Shown: positions 8,366-11,777 of the stretch, piece by piece
How positions within the stretch are numbered: the first letter of the stretch is position 1
How the letters are laid out: each line of letters begins with the position of its first letter
Source of the DNA: Candidatus Hydrogenedentota bacterium
Lineage (GTDB): Bacteria; Hydrogenedentota; Hydrogenedentia; Hydrogenedentales; SLHB01
Assembly: GCA_019695095.1 (NCBI GenBank)
Contig: JAIBAQ010000026.1
Coordinates: forward strand, 1-46,397
DNA length: 46,397 nt
Direction: 5' to 3'
Position numbers and translations under genes: made by a program
Notes under the pieces: model-generated
The model's input: only the letters and a program-made list of their open reading frames with translations
Told to the model about the DNA's origin: nothing
Databases searched by the model: none

Positions 8366-9955
8366 TTACTTTGCCGGTTGCGCGTCCTCAACCGAGACAA
8401 ATTCCCCGTTGGCGTTGAAGGTAAAGACCTTGTCCTGGACGATCTTGTCCTTATCCCAAATCGTGGCCTCGTACTTGTAGCGAATGGAAACGTTGCCGGC
8501 GTCTCCCTTCGTGGGTTCGCCCCATTCAATGGACTTTCGCGCCGTGATGTCTCGGAAGTTCTTGCTGAAGAAGTCTTCCACGAGGGCCTGCAGGCCGTCT
8601 TTTGTACTGGTATCAGCCGCCTGCTTCACAACGTCCTGCGGAAACCCCTTCTCGTCCTTCACGGCCACGAACTCACCCTTCGCGTCAAACGTGAACACCT
8701 GGTTCATGATCTTCGTCTGCTTGTCCCAGATACTCGCCTGATACTTGTACCGGATAGACGAGTTACCCTTGTCGTCGGCCGTCACATCGCCCCATTCGAG
8801 CGATTTGCGGCTCGTCACGTCGCGAAAGTTGTGTAGGAAGAAGTCTTCCACACGCCCCATCATCTCGGCCTTGGCCTTTTCGAGCGGCGCAGACGCCTGC
8901 ACGGCGTTCTCGCCCGCGATGGCGATTCCAAGCAGGGCCACAACCGCCAACGCGGCAAGTGACAGACGGCCAAGAGGCTTATGGGCCCGATACGTTTTCT
9001 CGGTCATTCGTAGGATCCTCCCGGAGAGCGAATTGCGTCGCTCCGTTATGCCGGCGCCGGAAACCCACAGCGCCGGCGCCGTGACCTGGGTCTCCTCAAT
9101 CACCCGCAACATGCTCCGCCCGTATCGCCGCTGCCTGCCTCCGGAATGCAGGACGGCGAGGTCGTCGCACGCCAGTTCACGCTCGTGCCGGATCCGGGCA
9201 TTTGCGTACCAAATCACGGGATGAAAGAAGTAGACCGTTTGAAGAACGATTTGAAGAACATTGATGAGTAAATCGTTGCGGCGAACATGCGCGAGTTCGT
9301 GCAGCAGGATGGGTTCAAGGTCTTCGATGTCCCACGTGTTCGCCATCGATGGCGGCAGCACGATCGTGGGACGCCACACGCCGATTACCGCGGGCCCGCC
9401 TCCGCGCGACTCCGGCAGCGTCACGAGTCCTATCTGCCCGCGCACACCCAGTCTGCGGGCGCATTCCAACAGAAGCGCGATGAGTTCCGGGCGAGTAACG
9501 GGAGCGCATGCACGCAAAAGCCCTTGAACGCGATACCGCCGATACAGCACGAGCATCGCGAATCCTGCCGCGGGCGCTAACCATGCCCATGCGACTAACG
9601 TGTGCCACGGGAAATCGTGCGGCGATTCGGCAGCGGCGGTGAGGTTTGAAGCCGCTGGAGAACTGACAGGATGCGGCTGCAGAATCGTTGCGATAACGGG
9701 CTCGTAGAGCACTGTCGTCGCCGTGTGCTCGGCGGCCAAACGCACCTCGTCGCCGATCCCTAAGGAAACGCCGATATGCACGGGCAGGCACAGACGCAGC
9801 AGCACGACCATCCACAGCCAATAGCGAAAACTCGGACTCGCGCGCCGGCACAGCAACGACACCACCCACACGAACGCCGCGAGTACCGCGACTTGCCAGC
9901 TCATGCTCCAAAGATACTGTGGCCATTCGGACGCGAAACCTTGAACGGTCTCCAT
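8366..9955 (-). CDS. BlaR1-like M56 family membrane metallopeptidase with two C-terminal repeats
   Basis: A 529-residue integral membrane protein. Hydrophobic segments near 18-38, 45-65, 118-138 and 325-350 flank the M56 zinc peptidase site HELAH (219-223), with the distal ligand in ERELACDD (about 258-265). In the BlaR1/MecR1 family such proteases cleave the cognate BlaI-type repressor upon an envelope signal. Here no penicillin-binding sensor domain is present. The extracytoplasmic tail instead contains two copies of a 66-residue unit at 369-434 and 459-524 (VEDFF..NFRD.T.RKS.EWG...IRYKY.A.IWDK...FTF.A.GEFV), exactly 90 residues apart. The start lies 2 bases after the BlaI stop, so the pair is translationally linked. 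The signal sensed by the repeats is unknown. Confidence 0.88.
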   Translation of the reverse strand: METVQGFASEWPQYLWSMSWQVAVLAAFVWVVSLLCRRASPSFRYWLWMVVLLRLCLPVHIGVSLGIGDEVRLAAEHTATTVLYEPVIATILQPHPVSSPAASNLTAAAESPHDFPWHTLVAWAWLAPAAGFAMLVLYRRYRVQGLLRACAPVTRPELIALLLECARRLGVRGQIGLVTLPESRGGGPAVIGVWRPTIVLPPSMANTWDIEDLEPILLHELAHVRRNDLLINVLQIVLQTVYFFHPVIWYANARIRHERELACDDLAVLHSGGRQRRYGRSMLRVIEETQVTAPALWVSGAGITERRNSLSGRILRMTEKTYRAHKPLGRLSLAALAVVALLGIAIAGENAVQASAPLEKAKAEMMGRVEDFFLHNFRDVTSRKSLEWGDVTADDKGNSSIRYKYQASIWDKQTKIMNQVFTFDAKGEFVAVKDEKGFPQDVVKQAADTSTKDGLQALVEDFFSKNFRDITARKSIEWGEPTKGDAGNVSIRYKYEATIWDKDKIVQDKVFTFNANGEFVSVEDAQPAK

Positions 9956-9957
9956 CG

Positions 9958-10341
9958 CTAAATGTCCTCTTCGTGTTGCTCCAACAGTTTCTTCAGCGTC
10001 GCCACTTCTTCGTCGCTCAGCTTTGGGCCTTTAGCTAAATGCGCGAACAAGGGCGCCAAGGTTCCGTCGAGTACATTGGATACGAATGAGTCCAATGCGC
10101 GGACCGCCACCTTCGATTGTGGGACGGCGGGCGCAAACACGCAGATGGGTCCGACCTTGTCGAGCTTGAGGTAGCCCTTCTGAACCAAGCGGTCCAGCAT
10201 CGTCTTGACCGTCTGATACTGCCAATCTTTCTTCGGGCCGACCTCGTCGTACACCTCGCGCGCCGTGCACTTCCCTCTGCGCCAGCAACACTTCATGACG
10301 ACCCACTCGGCCTTCGTAAGATCATCGAGTTCCTTCGCCAC
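9958..10341 (-). CDS. BlaI/MecI/CopY family transcriptional repressor
   Basis: A 127-residue winged-helix repressor. The DNA-binding half is typical: DDLTKAEWVVMKCCWRRGKCTAREVYDEV followed by QYQTVKTMLDRLVQKGYL, matching the BlaI recognition helix and wing. The C-terminal half (AVRALDSFVSNVLDGTLAPLFAHLAK) is the dimerisation and cleavage region that M56 proteases cut. It starts with GTG at 10341. It is the first gene of a two-gene unit with the M56 peptidase and lies just downstream of a palindrome likely to be its operator, implying autoregulation released by the peptidase. Confidence 0.92.
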   Translation of the reverse strand: MAKELDDLTKAEWVVMKCCWRRGKCTAREVYDEVGPKKDWQYQTVKTMLDRLVQKGYLKLDKVGPICVFAPAVPQSKVAVRALDSFVSNVLDGTLAPLFAHLAKGPKLSDEEVATLKKLLEQHEEDI

Positions 10342-10526: not shown

Positions 10527-10775
10527 TTAGCGCGAACGAGCCTTAATGGGTCCAGTGAATTCGACGCACACGGGAACACCGTCAACTTCAGGCGGGATGA
10601 CGATTTTGCCACTCTGAGCTGAAGCAATATTGACTTTAACGGCATAACCCTTTCCCACGCGTGTGATACCCACGCCGGTCAAGTCGCGTTCGCCGCGCAA
10701 CATATCGCTCACCCGAGCTTTGGCATTCCGGGCTTCTTCAAGGGAACATGTATTCATTGTTGAAGTTCTCTGCAT
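10527..10775 (-). CDS. Small protein resembling the N-terminal domain of its neighbouring protease
   Basis: About 82 residues, starting at ATG 10775 or possibly ATG 10757; the codon before 10775 is TTG and directly abuts the protease stop codon at 10779. The sequence LTGVGITRVGKGYAVKVNI...IPPEVDGVPVCVEFTGPI follows the pattern 'GVGi..g.g.yAv.V......iP.eidGVpv.V...G.i' found at the N-terminus of many bacterial trypsin-like proteases. It also lines up with residues 47-97 of the adjacent protease (TLVLGVAMRGEEDFALAVRV...EKKAKGEVDVRYIGSV). I infer a stand-alone copy of that domain, possibly acting in trans on the protease as chaperone, inhibitor or specificity module. Confidence 0.65.
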   Translation of the reverse strand: MQRTSTMNTCSLEEARNAKARVSDMLRGERDLTGVGITRVGKGYAVKVNIASAQSGKIVIPPEVDGVPVCVEFTGPIKARSR

Positions 10776-10778
10776 CAA

Positions 10779-11777
10779 TTATAGCGCCAAATCCACTTTC
10801 AGCGCATCCAAAACCTCGTGGATCGGATTTGCATAAGTCAGGCCTTTGCCGTTGGAGCCACCTTGGTCGCTGCCCGCAAACAACAGAGCCACAGCCCGCA
10901 GGTCGCTTCCCACTATCAGCGAACCACTGTCGCCCCCGTCGCTAAATGCTTCGTTTCCCGCGCCCTCGATCTCGATTTGGTTATCGAAGCGGGCATCGCC
11001 GTTGTCATACCCCACGACGACATTGTCCAGTTCGATTGCCGTCACGCGTCCCCGTGTCAGACCGGTTGTGTGACCAATCTTTGCTACCCGTAGGCCTTCA
11101 TCCACAAAGACATTGCCAACGCCTTTCAGCTTACCGAGACCGGTAAGCTTCGCAAGGTTCGCTTCAATTCCACTCCTAACCATGGCGGTGGCGCAATCCA
11201 CATAGTTGCTGCCTTTGAATTTCAACTTCTCGAATTTGTCGAGCAAGGCAACTGTATCCGTCCTTTTCTTGCCGCCATCCAATTTTGCCGGTTGCAGAAT
11301 GGCGTCGCCTCTATGAGCTTCGTTTTCGTTGGCGAGCACGTGATTATTCGAGAGGAGAGCAACCGCCCCGCCACCTCGCGGAATGACGAATGCGCCCAGT
11401 GTACCTGCAGTAATTCCAAAGTGTCCCACGCTGCACCCAATACTCAGAGGACGCTGCCGCTGTTGATGCCAGGGCAACGTCCTTTTGCGAACAGAACCGA
11501 TATAGCGAACATCGACCTCGCCTTTTGCTTTCTTCTCAATTCGCTTGACTTCGGGACTGGCTTCCATGGCACGGTGCTGAACTCGCACGGCCAACGCAAA
11601 GTCCTCTTCGCCGCGCATTGCCACACCCAGAACCAGTGTGCTGGGTGGACTTGGCCTTACACTCCATGCCCGCGCAGAGATACCAAAGAGTGGCCGGGCG
11701 TGCACAACCTCAGCCAGATCTGCGAGGATCTCTTGCGATAGTTCCACCTTCAGGTCTCTTGCCGATTCGAGTTGCAT
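10779..11777 (-). CDS. Trypsin-like serine protease (chymotrypsin fold, cytoplasmic)
   Basis: A 332-residue protein with a catalytic triad that can be read directly: His146 in LLSNNHVLAN, Asp194 in NYVDCATAMV and Ser284 in GGDSGSLIVG. No signal peptide or membrane segment is present, so it is probably intracellular. Residues about 47-97 form a small alpha/beta N-terminal domain typical of this Nal1-like bacterial protease group. The start at ATG 11777 has TAGGAG 9 bases upstream. It overlaps or abuts the downstream small gene with no spacer, which strongly suggests co-expression. Substrate unknown. Confidence 0.8.
   Translation of the reverse strand: MQLESARDLKVELSQEILADLAEVVHARPLFGISARAWSVRPSPPSTLVLGVAMRGEEDFALAVRVQHRAMEASPEVKRIEKKAKGEVDVRYIGSVRKRTLPWHQQRQRPLSIGCSVGHFGITAGTLGAFVIPRGGGAVALLSNNHVLANENEAHRGDAILQPAKLDGGKKRTDTVALLDKFEKLKFKGSNYVDCATAMVRSGIEANLAKLTGLGKLKGVGNVFVDEGLRVAKIGHTTGLTRGRVTAIELDNVVVGYDNGDARFDNQIEIEGAGNEAFSDGGDSGSLIVGSDLRAVALLFAGSDQGGSNGKGLTYANPIHEVLDALKVDLAL

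Follow-up and report, generated by a model that had tools for sequence, protein, structure and literature searches.

The protease gene and its small neighbour

The window, as we call the whole 46,397-nucleotide stretch of DNA analysed here, belongs to a 6.77-Mb Candidatus Hydrogenedentota genome and carries a gene for an S1 serine protease followed on the same strand by a small gene (Table 1). Both open reading frames, paired in an earlier sequence-only reading, were found where that reading had placed them on the minus strand. It had also described the genes as adjacent with no gap, but the small gene begins at ATG 10757, a start conserved across relatives (N-terminus MNTxSxEEARxAKxRV), which leaves 21 nt after the protease stop codon; TTG 10778 is merely the outermost in-frame start. 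This gap was checked, and no terminator-like site was found in it. Given that dN was far below dS for both genes wherever both could be estimated, with dS near saturation, we consider both to be real genes under purifying selection.

Table 1. Features of the protease gene and the small gene in the window, in order of transcription.
Feature	Position	Strand	Basis
S1 serine protease of 332 aa, NAL1-like, chymotrypsin fold	10779..11777	-	ORF, weak Nal1_C match, PDB sequence matches, invariant triad
Accessory N-terminal domain, protease residues 47-97	11487..11639	-	Widened-profile hhalign; NAL1_N position in full-length alignment
Catalytic His146 (LLSNNHVLA)	11340..11342	-	Invariant in alignments
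Catalytic Asp194 (NYVDCA)	11196..11198	-	Invariant in alignments
Catalytic Ser284 (GGDSGSL)	10926..10928	-	Invariant in alignments
21-nt gap, protease stop (TAA) to ATG 10757	10758..10778	-	Start conservation in relatives
Free accessory-domain protein of 76 aa (alpha-beta-beta-beta by prediction)	10527..10757	-	ORF, conserved start, AF2, homology

The protease has the same fold and triad motifs as the NAL1 family (Pfam PF25608 NAL1_N and PF25819 Nal1_C), and its His146/Asp194/Ser284 triad, which follows the family's order and motifs, was invariant in alignments of window-type and canonical members. However, the protease scored just under the curated Nal1_C cut-off (E = 2.6e-5; 24.0 bits against 26.1), was unmatched by NAL1_N in the Pfam scan, and is accompanied by an extra stand-alone protein that has no Pfam match. 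Given its score below the Nal1_C cut-off, we name it NAL1-like rather than a NAL1, with homology still clear in the full-length alignment. In that alignment its N-terminal domain occupies the NAL1_N position, right ahead of the first catalytic-domain strand. The nearest PDB sequences, all weak matches, included SFase, streptogrisin B (streptogrisin-type) and NAL1, and no obvious signal peptide was present. The small protein had no match in Pfam, NCBIfam or PADLOC, and its annotated plasmid-borne relatives are labelled "hypothetical protein".

Two other arrangements were considered and set aside. The two ORFs share one frame in the window, separated by one TAA and 21 nt, which would allow a fusion by stop-codon read-through; given that the frame is not shared in three relatives (L004, L009, L011), read-through is not the conserved arrangement. 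An anti-phage system was rejected because PADLOC models matched neither protein, nor two related proteases.

Kinship of the small protein with accessory domains

The motif likeness of the small protein to protease residues 47-97 had been the starting point of the sequence-only reading. With the first, narrow sequence sets, hhalign gave a probability of 1-2% and a score of 14.3 against a column-shuffle mean of 9.1, and 4 of 200 shuffles equalled it. The profiles were then widened with the intermediates L067-L069 and L078, which had been found by searches with whole proteases and not with the domain; hhalign now gave a probability of 62.5%, E = 7.3e-5 and a score of 25.3, while the shuffles averaged 8.9, peaked at 17.3 and were never as good (0/200). 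The alignment, GVGITRV-GKGYAVKVN..VCVEFTGPIKAR on LGVAMRGEEDFALAVRVQ..VDVRYIGSVRKR, fell in the register originally proposed, so the motif likeness held up. Judged from these profiles, the relationship of the small protein to the N-terminal domain of the window protease is real but remote, reaching significance only with the intermediates added.

In a tree of this short domain, with modest supports, the N-terminal domains of window-type proteases and the close free proteins fell into two separate old clades with broadly parallel subtrees, which marks the free protein and the N-terminal domain as old paralogues inherited together. On this tree, we rejected the idea that the protease's N-terminal domain had been duplicated recently. 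Thus, the description of the small protein as a stand-alone copy of that domain stood as to shared ancestry, seen by hhalign, but not as to the kind of copy, the tree and hhalign indicating an ancient paralogue that is closer to a version fused at the C-terminus of other proteases.

This fused version occurs in seven secreted Hydrogenedentota NAL1-like proteases (L012/L021, L019, L020, L025, L026, L028 and L029), which carry a single C-terminal copy and have no N-terminal domain; in another protease outside that set (L040), the domain is fused at the N-terminus. The free protein matched the C-terminally fused domain with hhalign probabilities of 97.6-98.8% (E = 3e-12 to 8e-17) and the NAL1_N-type domain of canonical proteases with 96.5-97.4% (E = 9e-10 to 1e-11), the latter comparison pointing to common ancestry of the small protein with NAL1_N. 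In canonical bacterial proteases (L034, L035), NAL1_N scored above its curated cut-off and lay immediately ahead of the catalytic domain. The window's small protein itself had no PF25608 match at that cut-off, and a free relative (L082) scored 19.4 of the 27 bits. When an HMM made solely from the nine nearest free proteins was run on 3089 six-frame ORFs, it picked only partners and fused domains and then, weakly, NAL1_N domains; E = 0.75 was the best that reversed decoys reached. In L082 the free protein matched the NAL1_N-type HMM (1e-13), and in L081 the protease N-terminal domain matched the free/C-terminal HMM (3e-7); these cross-matches place the free, C-terminal and NAL1_N-type versions in one superfamily.

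Predicted folds added less. The AF2 model of the small protein was helix-strand-strand-strand (pLDDT 80), and that of the protease N-terminal domain helix-strand-strand-helix-strand, built from only three sequences and unreliable (pLDDT 29). In the structural comparison that had been proposed as a check, the order of elements was compatible, although the second of these models is not dependable. The alpha-lytic protease pro region, noted as a lead ahead of the fold search, appeared there at rank 6 (2pro_A; prob 0.90, TM 0.51, E = 0.12, not significant), and KH-type ribosomal and cation-transporter domains scored about as well. Pfam scans with a listing limit of E 10 gave no Pro_Al_protease match, and a PDB profile search with the domain returned non-significant matches only (dihydroneopterin aldolase, E = 0.1). 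Two small uncharacterised proteins of the Mycobacterium phages Phabba and Myrna (BFVD A0A249XS89 and B5LJ31) matched the predicted fold of the small protein at E = 1.4e-5 and 6e-5.

Pairing across genomes

All 14 window-type proteases with downstream sequence (the window, L002, L004, L008-L011, L042-L044, L067-L069 and L078; L023, at a contig end, was excluded) had a partner directly 3' on the same strand, and none without a partner was seen among such loci. For L078, which diverges most among these 14, the N-terminal domain was identified by eye and from the tree, not with the first HMM. Hosts of these pairs were Hydrogenedentota, Variovorax and other Proteobacteria. Among 68 genomes of the phylum, a close small protein was present in seven, an eighth match (G022) being a fused domain, and the intact close proteases in these 68 genomes were all adjoined by the small protein (6/6). 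The loci were gathered through the protease or the small protein, mostly the protease, and are not random genome samples.

Pairing extended to NAL1_N-type proteases, ten of which had a downstream partner, including one on a Rubrobacter plasmid (L036). On two Rhizobium plasmids (L037, L056) the partner adjoins the protease divergently, bringing the NAL1_N-type pairs to 12. Both Rhizobium pairs lie next to radical SAM/HEXXH "peptide modification" genes, possibly a RiPP-like setting. The distance from the protease stop to the start of the partner domain, measured in 22 pairs, was 7-315 nt. As against the possibility, raised by the earlier reading, that homologues of the small protein are never found near such proteases, they adjoin them in Hydrogenedentota, Proteobacteria and one actinobacterial plasmid. 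About a dozen NAL1_N-type proteases had no adjacent free partner (among others L038, L039, L054, L055, L066, L074, L076, L083-L085 and phage L060), and a trans partner is therefore not universally needed. In L054, L083 and L084, one protein combines a NAL1_N-type domain, an S1 protease and a DNA/RNA non-specific endonuclease (L083 had no PADLOC match), and a Gemmatirosa plasmid (L055:2065-6175) carries two tandem NAL1_N-type S1 proteases and, immediately upstream of them, a shorter trypsin-like ORF as the third.

The Variovorax pair is 51% (protease) and 45% (small protein) identical to the window pair, and its flanking genes differ; the protease and partner genes move together. In G053 (L003:4557-5237, the same genome as L007), the partner ORF is intact while the protease upstream of it is a C-terminal remnant of 46 residues (287-332; 85% identity). 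Loss was thus asymmetric in this one genome, the partner outlasting the protease and never the reverse. No plasmid-borne close relative of the small protein was found by tblastn.

A candidate trans-acting regulator

Homology, the fused forms and conserved pairing support the view that the protein adjoining the protease is a free relative of the family's own accessory domain. What such a protein may do is suggested by two better known systems. Alpha-lytic protease is both folded and inhibited by its own pro region (PMC2605481). In alpha-lytic protease and streptogrisin (Pro_Al_protease, PF02983), as here, a small alpha/beta domain precedes an S1 protease, and 2pro gave a weak, non-significant fold match; however, there is no sequence match, and the domain of the window pair comes from a separate gene 3' of the protease. 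SUB1-ProM is a stand-alone propeptide-like protein whose gene lies beside subtilase genes and which is a potent inhibitor (PMC6993865). The window partner is likewise encoded by a separate gene adjoining the protease and is homologous to the family's accessory domain, but SUB1-ProM is eukaryotic, belongs to the subtilase clan and has been shown to inhibit, whereas the window pair is bacterial and of the S1 class, and inhibition is inferred.

By analogy with these systems we favour an inhibitor or foldase role, and we give roughly even chances to the small protein being a detached regulator that, like a prodomain but in trans, inhibits the NAL1-like S1 protease encoded beside it, helps it to fold, or both. 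Given that the domain is fused at either end of related proteases and that adjacency is conserved, a physical partnership is indicated; in the N-terminal version, the full-length alignment puts the domain immediately before the catalytic domain, a prodomain-like placement. The partner would dock on the catalytic domain via its beta-sheet and would assist folding, block the active site, or both, with protease activity set by the ratio of the two products. Co-production might render the cytosolic protease harmless for as long as the partner is neither removed nor outcompeted. In partners and fused copies alike, the C-terminus usually lies about 5-10 residues past a conserved glycine, often with the ending Ala-Tyr/Phe/Arg/Leu, and, more speculatively, the short C-terminal tail of the partner could act as a prodomain tail that enters the cleft. 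Against a regulator role, fused C-terminal copies would need to fold back onto the active site.

Two main rival roles would also account for a free domain beside the protease. It could be a structural or assembly partner, pairing with the N-terminal or catalytic domain of the protease to form an oligomer without inhibition. Domains of one family commonly pair with each other, and the shared ancestry of the free and N-terminal domains and their co-occurrence in 14 of 14 window-type cases fit this role, but the single-copy secreted paralogues indicate that two copies are not always needed, and we regard assembly as unlikely on balance. The occurrence of the domain in free form or at either end, as in many binding modules, would also suit a recognition or targeting subunit, one that binds a cellular site or substrates and delivers what it binds to the protease (in cis when fused, in trans when free). 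Such a subunit seems distinctly improbable, given that the free form stands almost only beside one protease family in the loci read (mostly fetched via the protease) and that no surface motif characteristic of known binding domains was found.

Two further explanations fared worse. Processing of the small protein by the protease, be it as a substrate or as a secreted effector, would agree with the adjacency of the genes, the peptide-modification genes at the two Rhizobium loci and a signal-like stretch with which partner L035 may begin; homology to the family's accessory domain and covalent fusions are unexpected for a substrate, most partners have no leader, and we hold this to be very unlikely. 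Chance resemblance, in which two unrelated small alpha/beta domains share a GV..G..V..G pattern, draws on the marginal direct match obtained with narrow sequence sets, but the widened profiles beat 200 of 200 shuffles and fused and intermediate forms connect all versions, so that coincidence has even less to recommend it.

Returning to the prodomain-like regulator, we tentatively propose a recurrent two-gene module, a generalization that is possible but falls short of probable, in which proteases of the NAL1 class would be under a free prodomain-like subunit interchangeable with fused N- or C-terminal copies. The I29 cathepsin-propeptide-like inhibitors are a further class of stand-alone propeptide-like proteins, and the module would be an S1 counterpart of the stand-alone subtilase and cathepsin propeptide-like inhibitors, with a toxin-antitoxin-like logic in the bacterial cytosol. 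The protease class and NAL1_N are already known, while the libraries searched cover neither the family of free partners nor the way in which it interchanges with fused versions; the few papers found, none of them on the NAL1 crystal structures, do not describe either. The window's small protein matches no model searched, yet partners stand beside these proteases in at least three bacterial phyla. Should the partner prove to inhibit or fold the protease, trans-acting propeptide-like control would reach an S1 protease class as well. In plants, NAL1 is a protease of agronomic importance, and given that its N-terminal domain falls in the same superfamily, the bacterial pairs could serve as a small, expressible system to probe the function of this domain.

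Viral genomes and the surroundings of the pair gave further observations. No relative of the window protease was found on viral contigs; a 484-kb uncultured phage (L060, LR756508.1) carries a NAL1_N-type S1 protease with no adjacent free partner, and the archaeal virus Alphaspiravirus (HE681887.1) encodes a related serine protease. Downstream of the pair, window positions 8366-10341 on the minus strand encode a BlaR1-like M56 peptidase and a penicillinase-repressor-type regulator, and the C-terminal end of the M56 protein consists of two repeats of ~60 residues (..SLEWGDVTADDKGNSSIRYKYQASIWDK..).
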